From Schaalia sp. 19OD2882 (GTDB taxonomy: Bacteria; Actinomycetota; Actinomycetes; Actinomycetales; Actinomycetaceae), in the NCBI RefSeq assembly GCF_018986735.1, contig NZ_CP065521.1, positions 2,499,836 to 2,563,835 on the forward strand: a DNA stretch of 64,000 nt. The letters run 5' to 3'. The position numbers were made by a program, and so were the translations under genes. Below, in pieces: positions 50,576 to 63,643 of the stretch (its first letter is position 1; every line of letters begins with the position of its first letter). Under the pieces are notes generated by a model. That model was not told where the DNA came from. It saw only the letters and a program-made list of their open reading frames with translations, and searched no databases.

Positions 50576-51925
50576 TCAGTCCTGGGGCAGGATGAGGGTT
50601 GCGATGCGCTGAAGATCCTCGGGACCTGCGAATTCGATCACGATCCGCCCCTTGGTACGGCCTTCCGTGATCGTCACGCGTGTGTCATAGGCATCCTGCA
50701 GCGCGCTGACGACGTTCCGTCCCAGGCTGGAGACCGGCCTGGGCAGTCGTCGTTGAGTCTGCGCCTGGCTCTTGACCCGTCCCAGGCGTACCAGTTCCTC
50801 GGTGGTGCGCACGGACAGACCCTCGGCAACGATGCGGTCGGCCAGGATCTCCATCTCCTCGGGAGTCGACAAGGAGAGCAGCGCACGTGCGTGACCTGCG
50901 GAGATCACCTGTGCGGCCACCTTCTTCTGAACAGCAGGGGGCAGGCGCAGCAGTCGCAGGGTGTTGGCGATCTGGGGTCGTGAACGAGCGATCCGACGGG
51001 CGAGCTCTTCCTGCGTGGCACCGAAGTCGGCCATGAGCTGTTGGTATGCGGAGGCTTCTTCAAGGGGATTGAGCTGTGCACGGTGCAGGTTCTCCAGCAG
51101 GGCGTCGCGCAGAAGGTCGCCGTCTTCGGTGTCGCGGATGATCGCTGGAATTGATGTCAGCCCGGCCAACTCGCTGGCGCGCAGGCGTCGTTCGCCCATG
51201 ATGAGCTCGAAGCGAGCCTCGGGCTTGTCTTCGAGATACTTCAGAAGCAGCTCGGACGGGGCTTCGGAGACGGAGATGGGGCGGACGACGATGGGCTGCA
51301 GGACGCCGACTTCCTTGATTGAGGCGGAGAGCTCGGCCAGGTCGTCTTCGTCGAAGACCTCTCGTGGCTGGCGGGAGTTGGGCACGATCAGATCAAGTGG
51401 GATCTCCGCGAATGCGGCGCCCTTGACATCGGGAAGGTCTGCTGCCTCTTCGTGGGACGGGGAGCGCGGTTCTTCGGGTGGCGCAACCCTTGATGCCAGT
51501 TCTAAACTGTCGACATCAATTGCATTCATTTCATTGTGCTCAACAACAGTTGCTTCGACGGCATCGATGTGCTCAGACGCTTCGGCGTCCTCCATCGCCG
51601 CCTTGGTGGAAGAACGTAGATTCACCGGAGGCATTGGCTGCCGTGTCCGCGACGAGCCGCGAGACGCAGATGAACGTTTGCGCGGGGCGACACTCTTGGG
51701 ATCCAGCAGATCCCTGGCGGATCCGCCTCGCCGAACGGTTGACCCTTGGGCGCCTTCGGGGAAGAAGACGTCGATGGGGCGGGCAGAGCCCGCAACCTCC
51801 TCGGCCGACACCGAGGGAATCAACGCTCCGAGTCCTCGACCCAGTCCCGTACGCTTCTTCGGCGCTTCACTGCGCTCGTGTCCGGCACCACGTGCGGTCT
51901 TCGCGGTCTCGTCCTTCTTTGCCAT
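50576..51925 (-). CDS. parB: Chromosome partitioning protein ParB
   Basis: 449 residues. It starts MAKKDETAK with the usual RTGLGRGLGALIP; a long low-complexity stretch (about 35-165) precedes the CTP-binding domain with SRQPREVFDED, ELIMGERRLRASELAG (GERRxRA) and LENLHRAQLNPLEEA. Then come the parS-binding HTH (MADFGATQEELARRIARSRP) and a C-terminal dimer domain. ParB loads at parS and slides as a clamp. AGGGAG lies 6 bases before the ATG. A parS variant sits 37 bases upstream, suggesting autoregulation. parA is not adjacent but 6.7 kb away. Confidence 0.95.
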   Translation of the reverse strand: MAKKDETAKTARGAGHERSEAPKKRTGLGRGLGALIPSVSAEEVAGSARPIDVFFPEGAQGSTVRRGGSARDLLDPKSVAPRKRSSASRGSSRTRQPMPPVNLRSSTKAAMEDAEASEHIDAVEATVVEHNEMNAIDVDSLELASRVAPPEEPRSPSHEEAADLPDVKGAAFAEIPLDLIVPNSRQPREVFDEDDLAELSASIKEVGVLQPIVVRPISVSEAPSELLLKYLEDKPEARFELIMGERRLRASELAGLTSIPAIIRDTEDGDLLRDALLENLHRAQLNPLEEASAYQQLMADFGATQEELARRIARSRPQIANTLRLLRLPPAVQKKVAAQVISAGHARALLSLSTPEEMEILADRIVAEGLSVRTTEELVRLGRVKSQAQTQRRLPRPVSSLGRNVVSALQDAYDTRVTITEGRTKGRIVIEFAGPEDLQRIATLILPQD

Positions 51926-51961
51926 TGTCGGCTCCCTGGCGTCGTTGAACAGTGACTCGAT

Positions 51962-51977
51962 TGTTTCACGTGGAACA
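51962..51977 (+). promoter_or_regulatory. parS 1 (variant)
   Basis: TGTTTCACGTGGAACA, one base off the perfect palindrome; 37 bases upstream of the parB start. Confidence 0.85.
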
Positions 51978-52350
51978 CCATCCTCCAAGCGCGACAGGGC
52001 GGAAATTCGAATCGACGACAGACAGTGCGACGAATACGTGCGGGGATGGTGCCGTGGAGTCGATTTCTTGCCGGAGCCTCTCGCTGGTGATGCCGCCGCG
52101 TCCTGTGAGGGGATTGTGAACACATGGGTGCCCACCCTTGGTCGTTCCGAAGAGATGTGTGGTGACGATGTTGCGGGAGCGGCCTGTCGGGACCAGATGT
52201 CATCGCCTCCGTGGTTCACGATGCGCTTCACCACTGTCGATTCCTTGAAGGTGAAGGACTTCTCTGCGGAAGAGGAGAGGGGCACCCGCCAGCAGGTCGG
52301 AGCTGGCCCGGGGTGTGGCCTTGCGCAGAGCTGTGTCGATTGAGAGCCGG

Positions 52351-52366
52351 TGTTTCACGTGAAACA
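52351..52366. promoter_or_regulatory. parS 2
   Basis: Perfect TGTTTCACGTGAAACA. Confidence 0.95.
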
Positions 52367-52562
52367 GCGGTCGACGCAGGCGCCACCGATGCTCTTGATC
52401 GAGAAGCCGCGATCGGCGCATCTGTCAGGTGCGCCATGCCTTGGGCGGTCCAGTCGTGAGGTCTGGCCTCCAAGGGTGGACCGTTGACTGAGCCGCAGAG
52501 CGCACGGTATCGACAGCAAGGGGAGTCACAGAGCTGCGCCACGGACCAGGACTGCACATCAC

Positions 52563-52578
52563 TGTTTCACGTGAAACA
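52563..52578. promoter_or_regulatory. parS 3
   Basis: Perfect TGTTTCACGTGAAACA, directly before the first CRISPR-like repeat. Confidence 0.95.
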
Positions 52579-52579
52579 C

Positions 52580-52847
52580 CCATCCTTGCTCACAGGGAAG
52601 CCACGGATTCATTCCATCGGCCTTTCACGGCAGGTTCCCATCCACTCGCACAGGAAAGGCATCAATCACAGCCCTGTGTACAGCAGGCACCCACGCCAAC
52701 CATCCCTGCACGTAGGGAAGCCATGGTCATGGCCAACATCGGCTTCCCGTCCGAGGACGCCCATCTCTGTACGTGGGGAGGCCATCCGCGCGGACCAGCG
52801 AAGCCCAGTGCGCACCGCACTCACCCCTGCGCGTGGGCAGGCCATCG
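52580..52847 (-). CRISPR. Degenerate CRISPR-like array, five units, no cas genes
   Basis: Five diverged 27-base repeats start at 52580, 52638, 52700, 52761 and 52821 (steps of 58, 62, 61 and 60). The best copy begins CCATCCCTGCACGTAGGGAA. A consensus dyad CCCTGCRCGTRGGG is shared, and the reverse complement resembles type I-E repeats (a CCCC-stem-GGGG core followed by ATGG). Spacer-like parts of about 33 bases differ from each other. Possibly a sixth copy near 52872. Strong decay and absence of cas genes suggest a relic. Confidence 0.45.
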
Positions 52848-53426
52848 CCGAGACCTGTTTGCCTTCAATATACGCCCGGCTTCCAGGGAAGCCGGGTTGC
52901 CTGGAGGCGTCGGTATTCCGACCGTGTGCCAACCGTCAGGTCGGCTGAGCGTGGCGTGCCGCAAGCACTCGCGCCCATCGGAGCCATTGTCATTGACGCG
53001 GCGAACTGATTGCCGCAAGGTCTGTGAAGAGGAAGTCCAGGGCCGTCGTGTGGGAGAGGGGCCTTCCGAACTCAACAGCACGGTAGATACGACGCCCGAT
53101 GGCGACACAGCATGGACCGTGAGTGGGTAGCTCATTTCCCCACTGCGCACCACGTCAGCCGGCGTGTGTACCGGGCCGGGTTGGGCCAGGGGATGCAACT
53201 GCACCCACGTACTGCCGCATCGGAGCGGCTTGCCTGCTATGCACCTCAGGAACCGAAGTGACTTTGCAGCAGGGTTCATTCGGCATCGAGAGCCGACCTC
53301 GGGGACGGAAGGACTCCACCCTGCGCAGTGACGGCCCCGCAATCCCTGTCTCTGTCTCTTCACCGAGCGAGGGATGCGATCCCAGATCGACTCCTCTGTC
53401 CGAAGGTTCCGGGCAAGGGCTTCACA

Positions 53427-53442
53427 TGTTTCACGTGGAACA
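53427..53442 (+). promoter_or_regulatory. parS 4 (variant)
   Basis: TGTTTCACGTGGAACA. Confidence 0.85.
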
Positions 53443-53530
53443 CAGCATCTGAGCTTGCGTGTCTTCGACCTACTCGCCTCTGCATGGTTGCAGACCGGCG
53501 GTGGAGTCGCAGGTCAATCGCTTCAGTCCA

Positions 53531-53598
53531 CAAGCCCACAAGCCCACAAGCCCACAAGCCCACAAGCCCACAAGCCCACAAGCCCACAAGCCCACAAG
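53531..53598 (+). repeat. Tandem 8-base repeat (CAAGCCCA)8
   Basis: Eight perfect copies of CAAGCCCA (53531-53594) plus a half copy, preceded by CCA. Such a run is prone to slippage, so copy number may vary between strains. Confidence 0.95.
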
Positions 53599-53927
53599 GA
53601 ATTGTCGATCGCCGCTCGATTGCTCTCGCACGCATCTCATGAACGAAGACTGTCGACCAGTGCCGGCAACTCGAAGACGATGTCTCTTCGGCTCCTCGGA
53701 TGCGGCCACAGTCCCTTCACGTCCACTACGTTGGCCCGACATTCACAGTCAATGCGCAATCCCGGAACCGCGCCATGAGTGCCGATCCGCCCGTGCCTTC
53801 TGCTCCCTTCAGAAGACTCTTTGGTCCAAGCCGCGCTGCTCACCTGCACGCGTGCAGATTCACGTGGGGCTCCACGCCCAAGCCCACAGTGTCGCACAGG
53901 TGTGTGAGGTCAAAGCAGAGCGATCAC

Positions 53928-53943
53928 CGTTTCACGTGAAACC
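53928..53943. promoter_or_regulatory. parS 5
   Basis: CGTTTCACGTGAAACC; perfect core, both outer bases changed. Confidence 0.88.
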
Positions 53944-54055
53944 GTGCATCGGTGCCCGCGTCCATCGTCTTCCTCGGTTCGAGCCCCAGTCGCATCATCC
54001 GATCCTCACTCAGTATCCTTCTTCGATCTGCGCCCCGGGGCGAGTCATCTGACGC

Positions 54056-54071
54056 TGTTTCACGTGAAACA
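54056..54071. promoter_or_regulatory. parS 6
   Basis: Perfect TGTTTCACGTGAAACA, 128 bases after site 5. Confidence 0.95.
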
Positions 54072-54900
54072 GCATCTTGCGGCCTTCGGCCACCTGACTC
54101 TCTCTTGCCCGGTGTTGAGGGATGCAAGCTCTCTTGCCGCAGCTCGCCATGCGAGCCGACTCTCGGATTGCCTTTGGCAGTGCCCGCGTGACCAATCGCC
54201 CGATGCCCTGTCTCCCGGAGGCTGCTCGTGCCTGGCCCTCTCAACCGACCACGAAAGCGGGCCCGAGGTCTGCCCGGACAATGGTGGAGCCTTCTCCATT
54301 CGTGGGCTGTGAGCGGCCGATCGAGCGTCATTGCCTTCGGCACCCGATCCGCTGCACCGCTCTGGCGAGGCCACACATCTCGCAATGACGTCAGCAGCGG
54401 AACCGGCGACCCGGTCGCGAGGGCGCTGGAACTCTCCGCGCAGGACCAGGCTCTCGCCTCGCCAACGCCGGGTGCGCCACCAGGATGTCGCCTCGTCTGA
54501 ACTCCGGCTGCGGGTAACGCACGGTGGACAAAGGTGAAGCCTTGGCGTCAGCAACTACAGAGGCGACGGGCGCCTATGGCGCTCAAGTTTCACGCCACCG
54601 TTCGCCCTGGGCCGGTCAGGACGATGGGCCGAGCCATGGTCGGATCCGCCGGGGCGACCGCCTGAGCGCTCCCGCCACGGTGTACCCGTCCTTCGTGGAT
54701 CCACGTAGAAGACGTACGTCGATCGGACAGGGGCGGCATCGAGCAAAGGTTGATGCTTTTTGACCCTAGGCATTGGGTCGGCACGATGAGGTCTATCGCA
54801 CGATCGATGAGGACTGCACCCGCTCCAGGGGAAAGGGCACACCGGTTTTCGCCAGGTATCGACATCCGGCAACTTGATTTGACCTTTGGGGCCATCCTCA

Positions 54901-54916
54901 CGTTTCACGTGAAACA
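54901..54916. promoter_or_regulatory. parS 7
   Basis: CGTTTCACGTGAAACA; perfect core. Confidence 0.92.
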
Positions 54917-55076
54917 GGGGCACTTCTACTGTTGGGCATGTACATACTGCCTCCGACATCCGGCCGGCAGTGCGCGTCCATGACCAAGGACGGCAAGGCA
55001 GCGTCGACCCCCGGTCCACGAAGCCGCGTGCGCATCAGGTCTCCCGGGTAGCGGGCGTTCGTGATGCTTGTCGATC

Positions 55077-55092
55077 TGTTTCACGTGAAACA
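55077..55092. promoter_or_regulatory. parS 8
   Basis: Perfect TGTTTCACGTGAAACA. Confidence 0.95.
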
Positions 55093-55670
55093 CTCCGAAA
55101 TGCTTCCGCCAACCGCAGCCACCCACCTCTCGGACAAATGGACTCTGGGAGTGCTCCACTACCAGTCTCAGAACGGACGCTTCCGTGAATCCGCAGCGGT
55201 GCTTCAAGCACCCTTTGCCGCACAGTCGGCGGCCCACAGTCGGCTGATCCGCTTTGCGCCTGGTGTTCAGCCTCGCGCGCAAACCGCTCTCCTCGGCCGC
55301 CTCATTTCGTGGCGTCCAAGCGCCCACACCCCATTTCGCCTCCAATCTCGATACGTCGGCCAGGACTCCGAAGACTCTCAACGTCAACCCCACTCCTCTC
55401 GAAGGTGTAGGTGGCCCCATGACTGGCAGCTGGCATGGCATGCCTCGAACCCAATCACGCGGTCTGTCGACCATCTGCTCTCCCTCTTCGCCCATCTGGC
55501 CATGTCGACATGGCCAACGCGCAGCACGGACAGAATGCTCGATCGTCGACGACGACCGGCACGCCAGTGATTCCCAAGCCATTGACACCGCGTTCTGCAC
55601 TGGGTGTCAGCGTGAACGCACTCGGTCTGGCTTCGCTTCCAATGCGCGATGACGAGAAGTTCCCATCCTG

Positions 55671-55686
55671 CGTTTCACGTGAAACA
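55671..55686. promoter_or_regulatory. parS 9
   Basis: CGTTTCACGTGAAACA; perfect core. Confidence 0.92.
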
Positions 55687-56083
55687 GAGGCGACCTCCTC
55701 CCGTCCGACGGGCAAGCGCTCTCGACTCATGTGGAGGTCTCAAAGTCATGCGCCTTCGCCGCCTGCGTTCCGACATAGGGGCCCGGCGCTGTCAGCTCGA
55801 CACCAGCCAACACTGCCTCGCTTTTGAAAAGGTACCAACTCTGCGAACAGCCGATCCCGATCACCGCCGGCTCGATCTCTGGGCCCATTTCCCAAACGAC
55901 CCGATGGAACACTCATGCTCGACAAATCCGACCTGTCGCGTACGGTCCTTCTTCGTCACACGCCACATCGCAGTGCCATCCTCGGCCACCTGGCCCGTGA
56001 TCAGGAGGATCATGTCCGAAGTGAAGCCTGACCATCTCCGTGGAACGGCACCTTGGGCACGCTCCTCCGATCGCATGTGTACG

Positions 56084-56099
56084 TGTTTCACGTGAAACA
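56084..56099. promoter_or_regulatory. parS 10
   Basis: Perfect TGTTTCACGTGAAACA. Confidence 0.95.
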
Positions 56100-56807
56100 G
56101 GCGATCCAGCAAGCGTCGCACTCCCACATTCATCTTCTTGTGCTCACCCGTTCTCGGCCTCCACGGTCAGTGGGCCCATCAGATCTCAGGCCGAGCCCCA
56201 GTAGACAAATGGCAGGGTCCCACTGCGCCACGGAGTCCCACATTCGCTTCGAAAAATACGGACCCACGTTGGCATGCAGCTTCCAGCACTCTCTCTCAGG
56301 ATCATGGCTCCTCGCCGCCCGTGGCCCTTCGGACCGGATTCAAGCAATGCCCTGCTCACCAGCATCCCCGCTCAAACCCGATTGGTCACCGCGCCTCTCA
56401 TCGCTCCAAACCCAGCCCCTCGCCCATGACCTCCTGGTGCCGACGATTCACACAGCCGATGCATTGGCATCACCGAAGGGAAACCTTGCTGACTGGCTGT
56501 CGAGCCCAACACCGTTCACATCTAAGTCCGCTGCATGCTCTGGGGCTGGCCAATGGCCACAATGTCCACCAATGTCCACCGCTTGATCTGGCATTCAGTA
56601 CATCCGTCATACACAGTCCACGCCCCGTCGAGCCGCCGCAGCACCTTCAGCCCTTCCATTGGTGGCTCCAGATCCGGACCGTCGACATCCTCAGGTCTCG
56701 CCTCTGCATCACCGCAGGAGTCTCCATTGCCGTGCTCCTGGCCCTGTGCCTCTCCAACCACTCGCTGATGGTGCCGCCCAATCGACCTAGCTTGACCCCA
56801 TCCGACA

Positions 56808-56823
56808 TGTTCCACGTGAAACA
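56808..56823 (-). promoter_or_regulatory. parS 11 (variant)
   Basis: TGTTCCACGTGAAACA, the same one-base variant as site 1 in the opposite orientation. Confidence 0.85.
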
Positions 56824-57108
56824 TCCTCTGCCGGCCGCCGGAGTCCTCGATTCCACCCCATCAGCTGACAACTCGACCACAATGCGCCTCCATCTCCAAT
56901 TCGGAACGGCTCAACAGTGGGTCGCCCTTCGCTGCTACGACCACTCTTCGCCGCAGAGAATGTGGCAATTCGGCGGCACACCCCGCCTCCACGACACTGA
57001 CGCACCCGTTGTCGCCAGGCAGGTGGCTCCACGGCGGCGCGCGCTTTCGCGCATTGGGATGACTGTTTGATTCAGAGCACGACTGCACCCGGTCCACCAG
57101 GGTTGAGA

Positions 57109-57124
57109 TGTTCCACGTGAAACA
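57109..57124 (-). promoter_or_regulatory. parS 12 (variant)
   Basis: TGTTCCACGTGAAACA. Confidence 0.85.
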
Positions 57125-57212
57125 CGGCCTGTACTTGCGCAAACCCTGCAGACGGTCCACCCGCTGCGCCTCTCCAATCAATCCGCCCATCGAGAATCCC
57201 TCTTCTGGTCGT

Positions 57213-57228
57213 TGTTCCACGTGAAACA
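57213..57228 (-). promoter_or_regulatory. parS 13 (variant)
   Basis: TGTTCCACGTGAAACA, 104 bases after site 12, the closest pair in the array. Confidence 0.85.
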
Positions 57229-57787
57229 GCCCCACAGGATCGCTGCCACCCTGACTGCCTCCGAGTCCTTCTCTCCGCTTGACATGTCGCCGCGCGCAGA
57301 CACATCGCCGCCAGAGCAGCCACAGTGATCCCACGGCCAGGCCGCCACATGACTTGATGCGCTCCCTTGCCACACCAGAGCAAAGGGCACCGAGCCTCCA
57401 CCGGACAGGAGACCCATTCGTCACCATGAGCAGTCCCTCCATTGCCGGAGCCGAAAGTCAGGAACCTCCGATCCACAAGCATGAAGCCGAACTCCGCACA
57501 TGTTTGGCCGGACTTCACGCGACCCGAATTCTCCCTCGTGGGCGGGCGGGCAAGTACTCAACTCCTTCAGCAGAGTGCCTTTTCCCAAGTCTCCAATGAC
57601 TCGACGCCGGCCAGGCCATGACCGCATGATCCCAGTGCCCGTCCCTCCCAGGGTCCAGGAGCAGTTCTCGAAGGAATCGGCCGGCGCCAGGTGGCCGGTA
57701 CCAGGTGGCCTGTGCCCGATGACCGCTGATTCGAGACTCAATCTGCCCGAGGAAGACAGAACTGCTGCATGCGAGGCACCGTGAGAC

Positions 57788-57803
57788 TGTTTCACGTGGA
57801 ACG
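57788..57803 (+). promoter_or_regulatory. parS 14 (variant)
   Basis: TGTTTCACGTGGAACG. Confidence 0.82.
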
Positions 57804-58164
57804 CTGCCACGACCTGTCACTCTCGGCTGCGTACCGCACCTTGCCGAATGCACTGTCTTCGGCCACCCACTCGCCCAACCTTCGCCCACATGCCAATGCA
57901 CACTGGTCCAGACATGCTCTTCTTTGGATGCCCTTCCCCGGAACTTCCGCCATTCGGGCAGTCGGAGCACTCTCCACGACGTCTGGGAATCCTCGTACTC
58001 AGCTGCGTCAGAGGCTCCTGTCTCCGTCAAGCGCCGACCAGCCGAGCGCAACTCCTCCGGCAACCCAATTGGAGGAGAGTTCATCTGCGAGGTGTCGCAC
58101 GTCGGAGGCAACGCCGAATCAAAGAGGCATCGCTCCCAACGCCGGTTGGACATGCCCTCTCCGA

Positions 58165-58180
58165 AGTTTCACGTGAAACG
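58165..58180. promoter_or_regulatory. parS 15
   Basis: AGTTTCACGTGAAACG; perfect core, outer bases changed; 459 bases downstream of the parA stop. Confidence 0.88.
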
Positions 58181-58638
58181 CGATCACGGCCAGGACCGGT
58201 GAACAGCGCCCTGAGCGGACCCGGGCACTCCGAATCAACACACACGCTCAGTACTGACTCCGACAAAGGTCGGGCATTGAGCCCCGACAGCAGACAAATC
58301 AATTCGAAGCAGCACCGAGTGGATGTGCAAAAGACGCCAATTGGCACCCAGGCCCATCGGCTTGACAGGCGTTTTTGCAGGTCAGAAGAGGTTTGAGCTC
58401 CATCTGACAAAGCGAAGTCACGCTCCGGGAGCCATGATCCACTCGAAGCAGCAGAGCCCCGCCCTCGCCACCGTCACCGCCGTGGTCACCGTCACCGCAT
58501 GCGACGACACACGAGAAATCGACAGGAGGCGCAACCCCTCCCATCCAGCGGCGGCACTACGGCAGAAAGCGAAAGCGCCTCACCCGACCCGTGGCGCGTC
58601 CGCGACAGTCATGGCCCACCGAGCACACCTCGTCGGCT

Positions 58639-59550
58639 TCACCCCTGGCCGGTGGCCGCCTGAAGGCGCCAACTCAACTCAAGAGCGGCCTTCCGGTACG
58701 CAAGCGCACCAGCACACCTGTCGTCATAGGTGATGACCGTCTGCCCGTAGGACGGAGCCTCCGAGACACGAATCGATCGCGGAATGACAGTCTGCAGCGG
58801 AATCTCGCCGAAGTGCGAACGAACCTCTTCCTCGACCTCCTGGCTCAAACGTGTCCGCCGATCCGCCATGGTCAGCAGCATCGTCGAGACCCGAAGCCGC
58901 GGATTCAGGCTGCCCGAGATCCTTTCGATCGTCGACAGCAGCTGGCTCAGGCCCTCCAGCGCGTAGTACTCCGTCTGAACGGGGATGAGGACCTCATCCG
59001 CGGCAACCAGCACATTCAAGGTCACCAGACCAAGCGACGGCGGACAGTCCACCATGACCACATCCACCTCGGGACCGGACTCCAGGAACTCCTCCATGGC
59101 ATCAGCGATCCGGTGCTCCCGCCGGTCAAGGTCCACCAGCTCGATCTCCGCGCCTGACAGGTCGATGGTCGCCGGGCACACCAGCACATTCTCCTGGTCC
59201 GGGCACTGCTGGACGACATCGGCGAATGAGGCCTCGCCGATGATGACGTCGTAGGTCGAGGGCACACCGGCTCCGTGATCGACACCCAAGGCGCTTGAGG
59301 CGTTCCCCTGGGCATCCGCATCGACCACCAGAACTCGAAGGCCTCCCACACCCAACGCTGCTGCAAGGTTCACGGTGGTCGTCGTCTTTCCGACACCACC
59401 CTTTTGATTGGCCACCGCCACGACCCGGGGAGAGGACGGACGACCGAAGGTCGACCGGTCCAACATGATCCGGTCCCGCATGTTCTCCGCCACCTGTGCG
59501 GCAAGCGGGTTCACCCCGGAGATCTCATCCATGGACTCCACCTCTTCCAT
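58639..59550 (-). CDS. parA: Chromosome partitioning ATPase ParA
   Basis: 303 residues. Deviant Walker A NQKGGVGKTTTTVNLAAAL at about 50, Walker A' VLVVDADAQGNASSAL, Walker B VVMVDCPPSLGLVTLN, and EYYALEGLSQLL, the standard Soj/ParA blocks. An N-terminal tail of 40 residues is normal for actinobacteria. It forms the ATP-dependent DNA-bound gradient that moves ParB-parS complexes. Met1 at 59550 has weak signals; Met7 at 59532 follows GGTGGAG and may be the true start. It is 108 bases after rsmG on the same strand. Confidence 0.95.
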   Translation of the reverse strand: MEEVESMDEISGVNPLAAQVAENMRDRIMLDRSTFGRPSSPRVVAVANQKGGVGKTTTTVNLAAALGVGGLRVLVVDADAQGNASSALGVDHGAGVPSTYDVIIGEASFADVVQQCPDQENVLVCPATIDLSGAEIELVDLDRREHRIADAMEEFLESGPEVDVVMVDCPPSLGLVTLNVLVAADEVLIPVQTEYYALEGLSQLLSTIERISGSLNPRLRVSTMLLTMADRRTRLSQEVEEEVRSHFGEIPLQTVIPRSIRVSEAPSYGQTVITYDDRCAGALAYRKAALELSWRLQAATGQG

Positions 59551-59658: not shown

Positions 59659-60399
59659 TCATACGCGAGTGCACACGACGACGTAGGTCGCCTCGTCCTC
59701 CATGACCGACGGAACCTCATGGACCGTGGCCTTGAGGTGGTGGCGCCTGAGCTCGGCTGCGGCGTCCTCGACCTCGATCGGCGCGCGACGCCCCTTGAGA
59801 GCGACCATCCGGCCACCCGGGGCGATGAGTTTGGAGGTGATGCGCACCAGTTTGGACATGTTCGCCACCGCCCGAGCCGTCACCACATTGGCCTTGCCCT
59901 TGCCGCGCAGTTCCTCGGCGCGAGCATGGTGGATCATCACATTGTCCAGACCCAGGGCATCGACCACATCCGAGAGCCACTCACAGCGCCTCTGCATCGG
60001 CTCGGCCAGGTGCACGTCCAACTCCGGCCTGGTGATCGCGACGATGATGCCCGGCAGCCCAGCCCCAGAACCCACATCCAGGACGACACCCTTGCGGGGC
60101 AGGAAGTCGAGGATCGCAGCGGAGTTGACGATGTGGCGCGACCACAGGCGCGGCAGTTCGCGCGGACCGATGAGTCCGCGTAGCTCGCCCTCCTCCTCCA
60201 GCATGTGCGCAAACTCTTCCACGTCGGCGAAGGAGGGACCGAAGAGCTTACGCACCGCATCCGTCGGCGATTCGAGCACGACCTCCCGCGCATCCGGGCT
60301 CGGCGCAGCGCCTGCGCCTCGCGGGTCGTCAGTTCGGGAGCGACCTCCAGGATCTGGGGCCGCAGCCTCCTCCGAGGCGTCGGTTCCGGCAGGAGTCAC
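59659..60399 (-). CDS. rsmG: 16S rRNA m7G527 methyltransferase
   Basis: A 246-residue SAM-dependent methyltransferase. LWSRHIVNSAAI, the SAM loop VLDVGSGAGLPGIIVAI, LAEPMQRRCEWLSDVV and VVTARAVANMSKL identify RsmG (GidB), which methylates G527 of 16S rRNA. An extra 45-residue acidic N-terminal stretch precedes the domain, so an inner start is possible. The start overlaps the jag stop (ATGA), so they are co-translated. Confidence 0.93.
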   Translation of the reverse strand: MTPAGTDASEEAAAPDPGGRSRTDDPRGAGAAPSPDAREVVLESPTDAVRKLFGPSFADVEEFAHMLEEEGELRGLIGPRELPRLWSRHIVNSAAILDFLPRKGVVLDVGSGAGLPGIIVAITRPELDVHLAEPMQRRCEWLSDVVDALGLDNVMIHHARAEELRGKGKANVVTARAVANMSKLVRITSKLIAPGGRMVALKGRRAPIEVEDAAAELRRHHLKATVHEVPSVMEDEATYVVVCTRV

Positions 60400-60962
60400 T
60401 GGTCTTCGCCCTCCGATTCGCTGTGGCCCTTCGACTCGCCTCTATCGACATCAACTTCGACATCCTCGGTCTCGACCTCGGCCAGGATGACGACCCGCCG
60501 ATGCGGCTCCACACCCTCGGACTCCGAGATCAGACCCGCCGCTGCGACCACATCGTGGCAGACCTTGCGTTCGAAGGGGTTCATCGGCTCCAGACGCTGA
60601 TCCTGCCCGGTGGTGCGCACGCGGGTGATCGCCTCCTCGGTCAGGGCCTGCAGCTGGGCCTTGCGTCCGGCCCGGTGGCCGGCGACGTCCAGCATGAGGC
60701 GGGAACGGTCACCGGTCTCGGTCTGGACGGCCAGTCGGGTCAGCTCCTGGAGGGCGTCGAGCACCTCTCCGTCGTCACCGACCAAGTGGTCCAGGGCGCC
60801 GGGGATCTCCGAAAGGATTTCCACGGAGGCACGACCGTTCTCCACGTCGATCTCGATGTCGCCGTCCAGGTCGGCGATGTCCAGAAGTTCCTCGAGGTAG
60901 TCGGCGGCCAGCTCGCCCTCTTCCTCGAGGCGGCTCAACTTCTCCTTGGTGGTGTCGCTCAT
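60396..60962 (-). CDS. jag: Jag/KhpB-like RNA-binding protein
   Basis: 188 residues. A KH-like domain (about 20-110; LSEIPGALDHLVGDDGEVLD, ALQELTRLAVQ) is followed by an R3H domain (RLEPMNPFERKVCHDVVAAA, SEGVEPHRRVVI). Jag proteins bind RNA and affect cell division and envelope growth. The usual long Jag_N domain is absent, as in other actinobacteria. It lies in the conserved yidC-jag-rsmG order. Confidence 0.9.
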   Translation of the reverse strand: MSDTTKEKLSRLEEEGELAADYLEELLDIADLDGDIEIDVENGRASVEILSEIPGALDHLVGDDGEVLDALQELTRLAVQTETGDRSRLMLDVAGHRAGRKAQLQALTEEAITRVRTTGQDQRLEPMNPFERKVCHDVVAAAGLISESEGVEPHRRVVILAEVETEDVEVDVDRGESKGHSESEGEDQ

Positions 60963-61075: not shown

Positions 61076-62530
61076 TCAGCGCTTGCGCTTTCGACGCCCG
61101 CGCATGTCCTTCTTGCGCTGCTGGCGACGACGTTCGATCTCTTCGGGGGTCAACTCGGTACTGAGGGCATCGCGGCGGGCGGCGCGGCGCTGCTCCTGCT
61201 CACTGAGCCCACTGGCACCGGCGGCGCTCGACTCCTGGCCGTTGTCACCGGCCCCGCCGGAGGTCTCGCCCGGCGCGTCCTTGGCCTCGCGCGGCGAGCC
61301 AGCACCACCGGCCGCAGCCTGACGCTCCGCCTCGACCCTGCGCTGCTCACGCGAGAGTTTGCGGCGCTGCTCGCGGCTGGCGGATTGTTCGCGCCTGTCC
61401 TGTGTGCGCTCGGCCGCCCTGTGGATGGCGCGCATCCACTGCTCGTCGGGCAGGGTGTCCCACTCCTGGCCGGCCAAGTTGCGGTAGACGCCCAGGATCT
61501 CGCCCTCGGACATGGTCTCCGGGAAGTTCGAGTTGATGCGCTGGGCCTTGGCGCGCGTACGCACATCGGTGAGGGTCCGGGTGTCCAGGTCGGCCAAGGC
61601 CTCGGAGTCGCTGCGGGCGATGCCGGCGCGGGCGCGGTCGTATTCGGCGAAGAAGGGGCGCGCCCACTCCTGGTACTTCGACTGGCGCTTGGCGACCAGT
61701 TCCGAATGGGCCTCGGAGCCGGGGGTCGGCATGTACATGATCGTCCACAGGGACTGGCCCAGCGACCACACGGTGGTGGTGACCATGTAGACCAACAGAC
61801 CCATCTGGAAGAAGAAGCCGGTGCCGATGAACATCACCGGCATCACGTACATCATCATCTTCGTGGACTGGGCCATCGGGTTGTTCGGGTCGGCCTGGGC
61901 CGGCATGTTCTTCGTCATTGACAGTCGCATGCTGAAGAACTGCATGATGACCATGGCGGCGATCATGATGATGAACACGGCCTTGCCGGCAATGTCCGGC
62001 GTGTCGGAGAACATGTGCGAGGTCGGCACGCCGAAGACGGTCGAGTCGACGATCTCCTTGGCCACGGTCTGGGTGATCGGGCCCAGTGAATCGGCGGCCA
62101 CCCCCTGGTAGGTGAAAGTGCCCTTTGCCAAGTCACTGGCGGCGAAAATCGCCCGGTACATGGCGAAGAGGATCGGCATCTGCACCAGCAGCGGCAGGCA
62201 GGAGGCGAAGGGGCTGGTGCCGTGCTTCTTGAACAGCGCCATCTGTTCCTCGCCCATCTTCTGCTTCGAAGCGGCGTCGGTCTTGCCCTTGTACTTCTCC
62301 TGCAGCTTCTTGAGTTCAGGCTGCAGGGCCTGCATCCCTCGCGAACTCTTGATCTGCTTGTAGAACAGCGGCAGGATCGCCGCGCGCACGACGATGGTCA
62401 CCAGGATGATCGACAGGATCCACGCGAAGCCCGCTCCTGAACCCAGACCCACGAACACCAGGGCGTTGTGGATCCACACCCACACCCAGGCGATGGCGAC
62501 AGCGAACGGGTGGAGAATCTGCTCCCACAT
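61076..62530 (-). CDS. yidC: Membrane protein insertase YidC
   Basis: 484 residues, Oxa1-type. Helices at about 28-48 (with Arg in VTIVVRAAILP, the hydrophilic groove residue), 118-135, 190-212, 238-258 and 262-280; the cytoplasmic hairpin contains LQPELKKLQEKYKGK. The C-terminal 180 residues are unusually long and highly charged (ending KKDMRGRRKRKR), which may bind ribosomes. It inserts membrane proteins with or without SecYEG. There is a 14-base gap from yidD. Confidence 0.95.
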   Translation of the reverse strand: MWEQILHPFAVAIAWVWVWIHNALVFVGLGSGAGFAWILSIILVTIVVRAAILPLFYKQIKSSRGMQALQPELKKLQEKYKGKTDAASKQKMGEEQMALFKKHGTSPFASCLPLLVQMPILFAMYRAIFAASDLAKGTFTYQGVAADSLGPITQTVAKEIVDSTVFGVPTSHMFSDTPDIAGKAVFIIMIAAMVIMQFFSMRLSMTKNMPAQADPNNPMAQSTKMMMYVMPVMFIGTGFFFQMGLLVYMVTTTVWSLGQSLWTIMYMPTPGSEAHSELVAKRQSKYQEWARPFFAEYDRARAGIARSDSEALADLDTRTLTDVRTRAKAQRINSNFPETMSEGEILGVYRNLAGQEWDTLPDEQWMRAIHRAAERTQDRREQSASREQRRKLSREQRRVEAERQAAAGGAGSPREAKDAPGETSGGAGDNGQESSAAGASGLSEQEQRRAARRDALSTELTPEEIERRRQQRKKDMRGRRKRKR

Positions 62531-62543
62531 GTGTGGTGCTCCT

Positions 62544-63011
62544 TCAGGACGGGCGGACGCCGGCTGCGTCCACGGTCAGCCCGGACGTTTCCGGGGAGGT
62601 CTGTGTGGTCACGAGGGCGGGCCCGTCCTCGTGGGAGTGTGCCGCGTGTGCGCGGATGGCCCTGGGCGAAACGGTGGTGCCGTCGTCCCAGTCCTCGATG
62701 CGCTCCAGGCCCATCGGGAAAGGCGGGTCGAGGTCGAGGTGTCCGGCCCAGTCCTCGGGCGGGACCCATTCTTCACTCTTCCAGCGGCCCTTGGCGGGAA
62801 CTCGGTCGACACCTCCGTGGCTCCACGGGTTGCAGCGCAGAACCCTCCATGCGGCCAAGGCCAGTCCCTTGAACGGACCGTGCACCGTCAGAGCTTCGAG
62901 GGCGTAGCTCGAGCAGCTCGGCGAGTAGCGGCAGCAGGGCGGTGTGGCCGGTGAGATGAAACGTCGGTAGACGTGGATGGGCAGGGAAAGAACCCGACTC
63001 AGGATCCTCAT
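62544..63011 (-). CDS. yidD: YidD membrane protein insertion factor
   Basis: 155 residues. The YidD core [38 protein letters not shown] and [14 protein letters not shown] fills residues 15-75. The last 80 residues (acidic, [17 protein letters not shown]) form an extension absent from most homologues of about 80 residues. ATG 63011 overlaps the rnpA stop and marks the conserved start. Confidence 0.92.
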
Positions 63012-63370
63012 CGGCCACCCCCCACTTCCCATTTGCGCCAGGCGCGTCCCAATGCGTTGTCGAGGGCGGATCCCAGGTCTGCGCTGTGGCGACCCACTGC
63101 GCCGGCGTTGACTCGCACGACGACCCGGGCCCCCACGGGCAGTGAGGGAATCCTCGATGCCATGAGGTGACGCAGTTGGCGGCGCACCCGGTTGCGTGCG
63201 GTGGCCTTGGGCACGTCCCTCTTGGCGACGACGAAACCGACGAGGGGCTCTTGGGGCTCCTCGTCGGTTCGACAGTGCACGACGACCACAGCATTGCCCG
63301 CCCGCGATCCGCTGCGGATCGCGGAGCGGAAGTCCGCCGGATCCACCATGCGGTGCGCGCGGGGCAACAC
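63008..63370 (-). CDS. rnpA: Ribonuclease P protein component
   Basis: 120 residues, basic. It starts [20 protein letters not shown]; the signature [15 protein letters not shown] (RNR motif) is at about 60-75, and [20 protein letters not shown] is the central sheet. It assists RNase P RNA in tRNA 5' processing. A GTG at 63370 was chosen as the family start; the frame is open upstream toward rpmH but without homology. It overlaps yidD by four bases. Confidence 0.92.
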
Positions 63371-63378
63371 CGAAGGTC

Positions 63379-63519
63379 TCAGGCGGACAGGCTCTTGCGA
63401 CCCTTGCGACGGCGCGCGGCCAGGATGGCGCGGCCGGCGCGGGTGCTCATGCGCAGACGGAAGCCGTGCGTCTTGGAACGACGACGGTTGTTGGGCTGGA
63501 AGGTCCGCTTGGTGGTCAC
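63379..63519 (-). CDS. rpmH: Ribosomal protein bL34
   Basis: 46 residues: [20 protein letters not shown] and [18 protein letters not shown] are the invariant bL34 sequence. The start is a GTG at 63519. It is first in the minus-strand operon rpmH-rnpA-yidD-yidC-jag-rsmG-parA and diverges from the expected dnaA. Confidence 0.95.
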
Positions 63520-63643
63520 TTGTCTCTCGTCTCCGTGGAGGAACGGGTGGGTCCCGTTCGGCGGCTGGTCCTGACGTCTCCACCGGAACTGTTGTCCGCA
63601 GGAGACGGCCGGCGCCCGGAATGCCGGGCACATACGAACACCC

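Follow-up and report, generated by a model that had tools for sequence, protein, structure and literature searches.

A dense array of 15 parS sites between parA and parB of Schaalia sp. 19OD2882, a probable chromosomal centromere

A clear precedent for a dense chromosomal parS cluster is that of Myxococcus xanthus, in which a 3 kb stretch some 4 kb upstream of parA is reported to hold 22 sites (PMC3899335; the cluster is given as 24 sites in PMC3778016), and whose ParB is reported to shift a 3.12 kb probe carrying 22 sites in vitro (PMC3899335). In Corynebacterium glutamicum, ten sites (parS1-10), nine of them intergenic, are described over 35 kb at a distance of 73 kb from oriC, and a single parS is reported to suffice for spreading up to 16 kb each way (PMC7083940). 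Reports on other ParB proteins describe CTP-dependent loading of a clamp at parS followed by sliding (PMC8299390, PMC9242446), CTP-dependent spreading from multi-parS DNA (PMC8299390) and the halting of sliding clamps by roadblocks in vitro on stretched DNA, with bypass possible on slack DNA (PMC9242446). The subject of the present analysis is an array of 15 parS sites separating parA from parB in Schaalia sp. 19OD2882 (Actinomycetaceae), contained in a stretch of 64,000 nucleotides of contig NZ_CP065521.1 that was analysed in full and is referred to here as the window. The array represents no new system but a conspicuous variant of a bacterial centromere already known. No description of such parS arrays in Actinomycetaceae was found among the titles and abstract openings listed from the open-licence literature, which is not proof of absence.

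The genome consists of one contig of 2,563,835 bases, and all of its exact copies of GTTYCACGTGRAAC, 15 in number, lie within 6.2 kb of the window (51963-58179). Scanning with TTTCACGTGAAA at no more than one mismatch also gave 15 matches, from 51964 to 58178, with none in the rest of the window, and the count stayed at 15 when two mismatches were permitted; the chance expectation for such matches was 0.08, with a maximum of one (100 dinucleotide shuffles). The sites are of the 14-16-mer parS type built around TTYCACGTGRAA that is expected of ParABS systems. The 14-mer GTTYCACGTGRAAC is fitted by all of them and the full TGTTTCACGTGAAACA by five, and a strict search of the genome for TTATCCACA gave no match, an uninformative result. 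Perfect palindromes make up nine of the 15 sites, and a single base is altered in each of the other six (three TTTCACGTGGAA, three TTCCACGTGAAA). The gap between parA and parB holds 15 sites with no mismatch and none with one or two, while copies of GTTYCACGTGRAAC with a single mismatch outside the array number three in the genome (662407, 1082771 and 2090387). Chance origin of the array was ruled out by the shuffles and by the absence of near-miss sites from the gap. A first-pass annotation made from the letters had listed 15 copies or one-base variants and none elsewhere in the window, and the re-scan returned the same number with identical successive steps (389, 212, 864, 501, 128, 845, 176, 594, 413, 724, 301, 104, 575 and 377 bp); its placing of the array was right apart from a start two bases early, which is immaterial. 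Its account did not mention that the array is flanked by parA and parB in non-coding DNA. It had also proposed a whole-genome parS count, which left the exact sites confined to the array.

The array is enclosed by a ParB possessing ParB_N and HTH_ParB domains and by a ParA ATPase (Table 1), and with 15 sites in 6.2 kb it exceeds the ten or so sites within a few kb near par that would mark a dense cluster. On the minus strand the gene order is rnpA, yidC, jag, rsmG, parA, array, parB. The window comprises the last 64,000 bases of the contig, base 1 of which is dnaA, followed by dnaN and a RecF-like gene; if circular closure of the contig is assumed, the array lies approximately 6-12 kb from dnaA, that is, near oriC. 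A rough scan for DnaA boxes at the joint of the contig ends found none. Smc and ScpA, as partners for a possible Smc-ScpAB loading locus, are both encoded in the genome, the former with both SMC_N halves within a 1,191-aa frame and the latter with an E value of 5.2e-39 (the search covered Smc and ScpA). By sequence and context (parA and parB flanking, dnaA at about 6 kb given closure of the contig), the identity of the sites as chromosomal parS is supported, and the impression in the first-pass annotation that the array looks like a centromere is borne out to that extent. Like the M. xanthus cluster, the array consists of many sites packed near parAB and oriC. However, the M. xanthus cluster is described as lying about 4 kb upstream of an intact parA-parB operon and about 35 kb from oriC, whereas the window array splits the two genes, which are 6,713 bp apart, and has fewer and wider-spaced sites. 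With C. glutamicum it shares an actinobacterial chromosomal ParABS system and many near-identical sites near oriC, but the C. glutamicum sites are not in one gene-free tract between parA and parB. The start of parB was picked by the motif GLGRGLGALIP and is uncertain in loci in which that motif was not found.

Table 1. Features of the parS array and its surroundings, in window coordinates
Feature	Position	Strand	Remarks
parB, 449 aa from ATG	50576..51925	-	PF02195 (ParB_N) E 1.6e-28 and PF17762 (HTH_ParB) E 1.7e-35, on longer open reading frame 50576-52285
Non-coding parA-parB gap holding the whole array	51926..58638	.	6,713 bp, GC 0.62
parS site 1	51963..51976	.	about 50 bp upstream of parB ATG
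parS site 2	52352..52365	.	exact motif match
parS site 3	52564..52577	.	exact motif match
parS site 4	53428..53441	.	exact motif match
parS site 5	53929..53942	.	exact motif match
parS site 6	54057..54070	.	exact motif match
parS site 7	54902..54915	.	exact motif match
parS site 8	55078..55091	.	exact motif match
parS site 9	55672..55685	.	exact motif match
parS site 10	56085..56098	.	exact motif match
parS site 11	56809..56822	.	exact motif match
parS site 12	57110..57123	.	exact motif match
parS site 13	57214..57227	.	exact motif match
parS site 14	57789..57802	.	exact motif match
parS site 15	58166..58179	.	exact motif match
parA, 303 aa	58639..59550	-	AAA_31, PF13614 E 3.4e-54; KGGVGKTTT Walker motif
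rsmG (gidB)	59659..60399	-	TIGR00138 above cut-off
jag/khpB-like (R3H)	60396..60962	-	PF01424 E 1.1e-18
yidC	61076..62530	-	PF02096 E 2.3e-49
rnpA-containing open reading frame	63008..63631	-	PF00825 E 1.8e-18

Our preferred reading, to which we give a probability of roughly three in four, is that the array is the centromere of a chromosomal ParABS system, in which many ParB-CTP gates in gene-free DNA near oriC form one locus for partition and Smc loading. For this locus we infer ParB binding, clamp loading, Smc loading and autorepression. Each parS would serve as a loading gate: a ParB dimer would bind there, acquire CTP, shut into a clamp and then slide away, and fifteen such gates set 104-864 bp apart would raise the local rate of ParB loading. 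As the tract has no genes, the clamps would be expected to encounter fewer RNA polymerases. The whole array would then behave as one compact partition complex pulled by ParA, and Smc-ScpAB would be loaded at this one locus. The site nearest to parB would be an old one common to much of the genus and probably also represses parB; no longer next to parA, that gene probably requires a promoter of its own. The first-pass annotation had envisaged an unusually large ParB loading zone; since a single C. glutamicum site already spreads as far as noted above, the array more plausibly raises the loading capacity at one compact place than widens the zone.

The tract between parA and parB is non-coding. 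When it was scored with the genome's own codon usage, none of 65 windows of 300 bp reached the lowest window of parA or parB; this scoring separates gap from genes cleanly, but parA and parB were themselves part of its training set. With a second training set all 43 gap windows fell below 0 while gene averages ranged from 0.14 to 0.53, although single windows of real genes went down to -0.18 and overlapped the gap windows. The ten longest open reading frames wholly inside the gap had no Pfam or PHROG match (E 0.1), and 101 stop-to-stop frames of at least 50 aa found no tblastn match among the remaining fetched loci. Codon usage and these searches together ruled out hidden genes in the gap. Neither an Rfam match at gathering scores nor a tRNA was found in the window, and a scan of 51800-58800 for terminator-like sites was uninformative, with 4 against 4.6 expected. 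The tract has no long repeats except parS and one microsatellite, which consists of 8.9 perfect copies of the 8-bp unit CCACAAGC at 53528-53598. On its + strand C strongly exceeds G, the skew of -0.22 at 55-58 kb being the most pronounced anywhere in the 2-kb profile of the window; this would fit a leading-strand bias left unmasked in non-coding DNA close to oriC.

The window array is not a recent tandem duplication, since none of its 91 spacer pairs is similar, and tandem duplication of a parS-bearing unit was ruled out for the window by this result together with the lack of long direct repeats other than parS and the microsatellite. Fifteen intact sites in mutually dissimilar spacers, with none at one or two mismatches, suggest the upkeep of each site. 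The spacing is evener than that obtained by random placement between the outer sites (coefficient of variation 0.55 against 0.91, P 0.014-0.016), as is that of G015, a relative in the same genus (coefficient of variation 0.46, P 0.0001). Every array with at least six sites per segment in 79 loci was tested in this manner, giving 40 arrays of which 25 had P<0.05 and 34 lay on the even side; these arrays are partly related, so the tests are not independent. An earlier test on 23 hand-chosen arrays had given 16 at P<0.05. Short gaps were also fewer than expected across the 40 arrays, with 45 of 356 below 100 bp compared with 90 expected.

Fifteen pairs of loci were aligned for the comparison of change in sites and in spacers. 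In all seven pairs with a spacer divergence below 40% the sites were better kept than the spacers, two of these pairs having just 1-2 sites. Five of the seven come from another genus, g17, in which the arrays sit after parB, and have members in common. L094 and L105 have 14 of 15 sites in common, with 1 of 210 site bases changed against 1092 of 4247 spacer bases and with 4.3% of control 14-mers intact. The corresponding values are 13 of 15 sites and 2 of 210 bases against 25.7% of spacer for L094/L104, 12 of 15 and 3 of 210 against 10.9% for L104/L105, 8 of 9 and 1 of 112 against 18.0% for L097/L115, and 8 of 8 and 0 of 112 against 12.3% for L097/L101. The small pairs from within the genus concur (L067/L072 with one site, L061/L074 with two). 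In the eight pairs whose spacers are more than 50% different, the sites of L123/L124 and L125/L127 were no better kept than the spacers and those of L132/L123 little better, and in the six of these eight that were checked locally, hardly any spacer or none at all could be aligned. Site-by-site conservation is seen for some g17 arrays and not for arrays before parA. The test rests on the g17 pairs because no alignable relative of the window array was found; for the window, site conservation is only suggested, by its 15 intact sites in unrelated spacers. A separate observation concerns L123 and L124 (genomes G151 and G157), which are close by protein (path about 0.04) and have ten sites each before parA, with 270 of 3,322 bp of spacer alignable.

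The par region was fetched from all 35 available genomes of the genus (the relatives being L059-L092), close ParB relatives including Schaalia odontolytica, S. vaccimaxillae, S. cardiffensis and several Actinomyces. Exact parS sites range from 2 to 22 per genome. Many members have a short parA-parB gap, of about 165-225 bp with one or two sites, and in five (L060, L068, L081, L082 and L087) it is of middle size, at 1.4-2.5 kb with 1-5 sites. G015 (locus L059, on contig JAUNHH010000016.1 of a metagenome-assembled genome) has a gap of 8.2 kb with 21 sites and one further site inside parB, a total of 22; aligned with the window array, it showed similarity that was short and mostly centred on parS among the rows listed. 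The window groups with G015, L068 and L087 in one clade (Shimodaira-Hasegawa-like approximate likelihood ratio test, SH-aLRT, 99), and the gaps of all four are wide, those of L068 and L087 containing just 3 and 2 sites. Gap length and site number gave a Pearson coefficient of 0.95, a value driven by two points, and a Spearman coefficient of 0.44 (P 0.007, n 36 including one locus from outside the genus).

In 28 of 35 genus loci the stretch from parA to the parB core contains a parS followed by AAT. Among 21 loci inspected, 17 have a parS at 40-78 bp ahead of the parB start that was chosen, AAT not being present in all 17. Site 1 of the window (51963) is this parB-leader site, and its position, kept in much of the genus, is probably ancestral and autoregulatory. 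By the starts used, at least one parS is present inside the parB reading frame of all 34 genus relatives and none in that of the window; the one in L059 and L060 encodes VSRET. The records titled Xylanimonas cellulosilytica 352_XCEL (L031) and Sanguibacter keddieii 250_SKED (L033) have par loci resembling those of Schaalia/Actinomyces oral species. They are probably mislabelled, their counterparts grouping within the genus.

Among 213 genomes of the family, 211 have at least one exact site, 48 at least nine and 13, the window's included, at least 15. The density of the array had been presented as exceptional in the first-pass annotation; the array is indeed not a product of chance, but the count in relatives that the annotation had called for does not support treating the window as an exception, since 13 family genomes reach 15 exact sites, a genus relative has 22 sites, and M. 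xanthus is reported to have 22 in 3 kb (PMC3899335). Outside the genus 46 genomes have at least nine sites, of which 41 were taken and 40 fetched (L094-L133), G196 having no ParB match, and the frequencies of array position apply to such high-count genomes. Arrays of at least five sites are placed after parB (within 6 kb) in 27 of the 40, before or in parA in 10 and in neither position in three. At least five sites within the parA-parB gap were found in the window, L059 and L060, and also in Citricoccus and Micrococcus terreus. These three alternative par-flanking positions are connected by at least nine changes of state on a tree of 85 rows, which is a quick tree without bootstrap, includes rows from other families and has four states (the three positions and 'no array', meaning fewer than five sites per segment).

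Arrays of the Actinomycetaceae after parB (g17, g26, g31) or before parA (g21, g27, g29, g30, g41, g46) resemble the window's in having at least five sites in one segment within 6 kb of par, and the tracts that were checked look non-coding. For nine tracts at these two positions the codon usage of the window served for scoring, and the eight that could be judged averaged below their own genes; five tracts scored with their own codon usage, L121 being judged in this way, did likewise. Unlike the window array, these arrays flank the par genes elsewhere, and in most of the loci parA and parB are neighbours. The arrays of Citricoccus and M. terreus (L049, L055, L046) do sit inside a parA-parB gap, with 5-7 sites in 1.5-1.9 kb, but they are smaller than the window's and, since they belong to another lineage on the tree, probably have a separate origin. 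Similar spacers, in one pair or more, occur in 9 of 23 arrays compared (G015 and L122 with six such pairs each), so local duplication helped to build some arrays and could contribute to even spacing there. In L122, upstream of parA, five sites stand at exact 135-bp steps with six similar spacer pairs, a case of growth by tandem duplication.

In a sample of 297 genomes from the order, the highest count was 34 exact sites, in G400. This genome, from another family of the same order, has its 15 listed sites scattered over more than 200 kb and not packed, and its genus-mate G259 has 17 sites. In G408 of the same sample, 14 sites in 2.7 kb adjoin parB. Contigs C12 and C25 of G457 both carry parB and a downstream parS array, the six listed sites of the second contig being spaced as on the first, representing either a duplication or an assembly copy.

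A number of results weigh against the centromere reading set out above. No relatives with spacers alignable to the window array were found, no sigma-70-like promoters were found in 51800-58800, and 15 of the 40 arrays tested are not significantly even, with five (L097, L101, L108, L115, L117) clearly uneven. Just one of ten sites of L123/L124 lies in alignable spacer, so that sites turn over while both loci keep ten; the array seems to have been rebuilt and not conserved site by site, with very fast turnover of the tract and the site number kept. The gaps of L068, L081, L082 and L087 are non-coding over 1.4-2.5 kb and hold just 1-3 sites, so a gap may grow without parS as the driver. Finally, one of the ten C. 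glutamicum sites is reported to be enough for near-normal growth (PMC7083940), and for this reason the fifteen sites of the window may be redundant. Such loss of individual sites, nearly empty gaps and tolerance of a single site, along with the 2 to 22 sites per genome within the genus, would suit an explanation by robustness or drift, under which a single site is sufficient and the others are extras under weak selection that gather beside par, in a tract with few genes where gaining a site does no harm. We regard this as unlikely, though it deserves serious attention. It does not readily account for 15 intact sites with no near misses in the window, for the even spacing of 25 of 40 arrays, for a change of 0-1.4% in sites against 11-26% in spacers of the five g17 pairs, or for the repeated formation of arrays.

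Position directly upstream of parB raises the alternative that the array is a regulatory sink, titrating ParB and tying parB expression to occupancy. The parB-leader site found across most genus loci fits such a role, as does the separation of parA and parB, after which parB probably needs its own control. As a function of the whole array it is improbable, given that the nearest site alone holds its place and that high-count relatives carry their arrays outside the parB leader, 10 of 40 having them ahead of or within parA and 27 of 40 downstream of parB. It would be more surprising still if the tract were a decayed insertion of a phage, plasmid or other mobile element with the sites as its remains. 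The gap does have a GC content of 0.62 compared with about 0.66 in the near flanks and greatly exceeds in size that of most genus members, but its ten longest reading frames resemble nothing in Pfam or PHROG, long repeats are limited to parS and the microsatellite, the window has no tRNA, and the 101 frames lack matches in the other fetched loci (phage and plasmid collections were not searched for spacers). A mobile element origin was thus unsupported by the tRNA, Rfam, Pfam and PHROG scans, and we consider it very improbable.

A wider proposal, which we hold tentatively and at somewhat less than even odds, is that the centromere of the Actinomycetaceae is a renewable regional array. Gene-free tracts would grow beside par and fill with selected, evenly spaced gates, having arisen or moved several times among the three positions; spacers, and in some lineages sites, would turn over quickly while the number and evenness of the gates are kept. 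The window would be the extreme case, in which the par genes are split, and the shortage of close neighbours may correspond to the room that a ParB clamp needs to leave its gate, although the mean step of 91 bp in L109 indicates that this spacing is no fixed limit. That bacteria have many parS sites though one often suffices is a standing question, which these arrays address. The family provides arrays of 5-21 sites recurring at different par-flanking positions, mostly even and in fast-changing non-coding DNA, and the series from 2 to 22 sites in one genus would make loading capacity, clamp spacing, Smc collisions and the control of parB testable. The window array itself is a case in which parA and parB are separated by what is probably their centromere.

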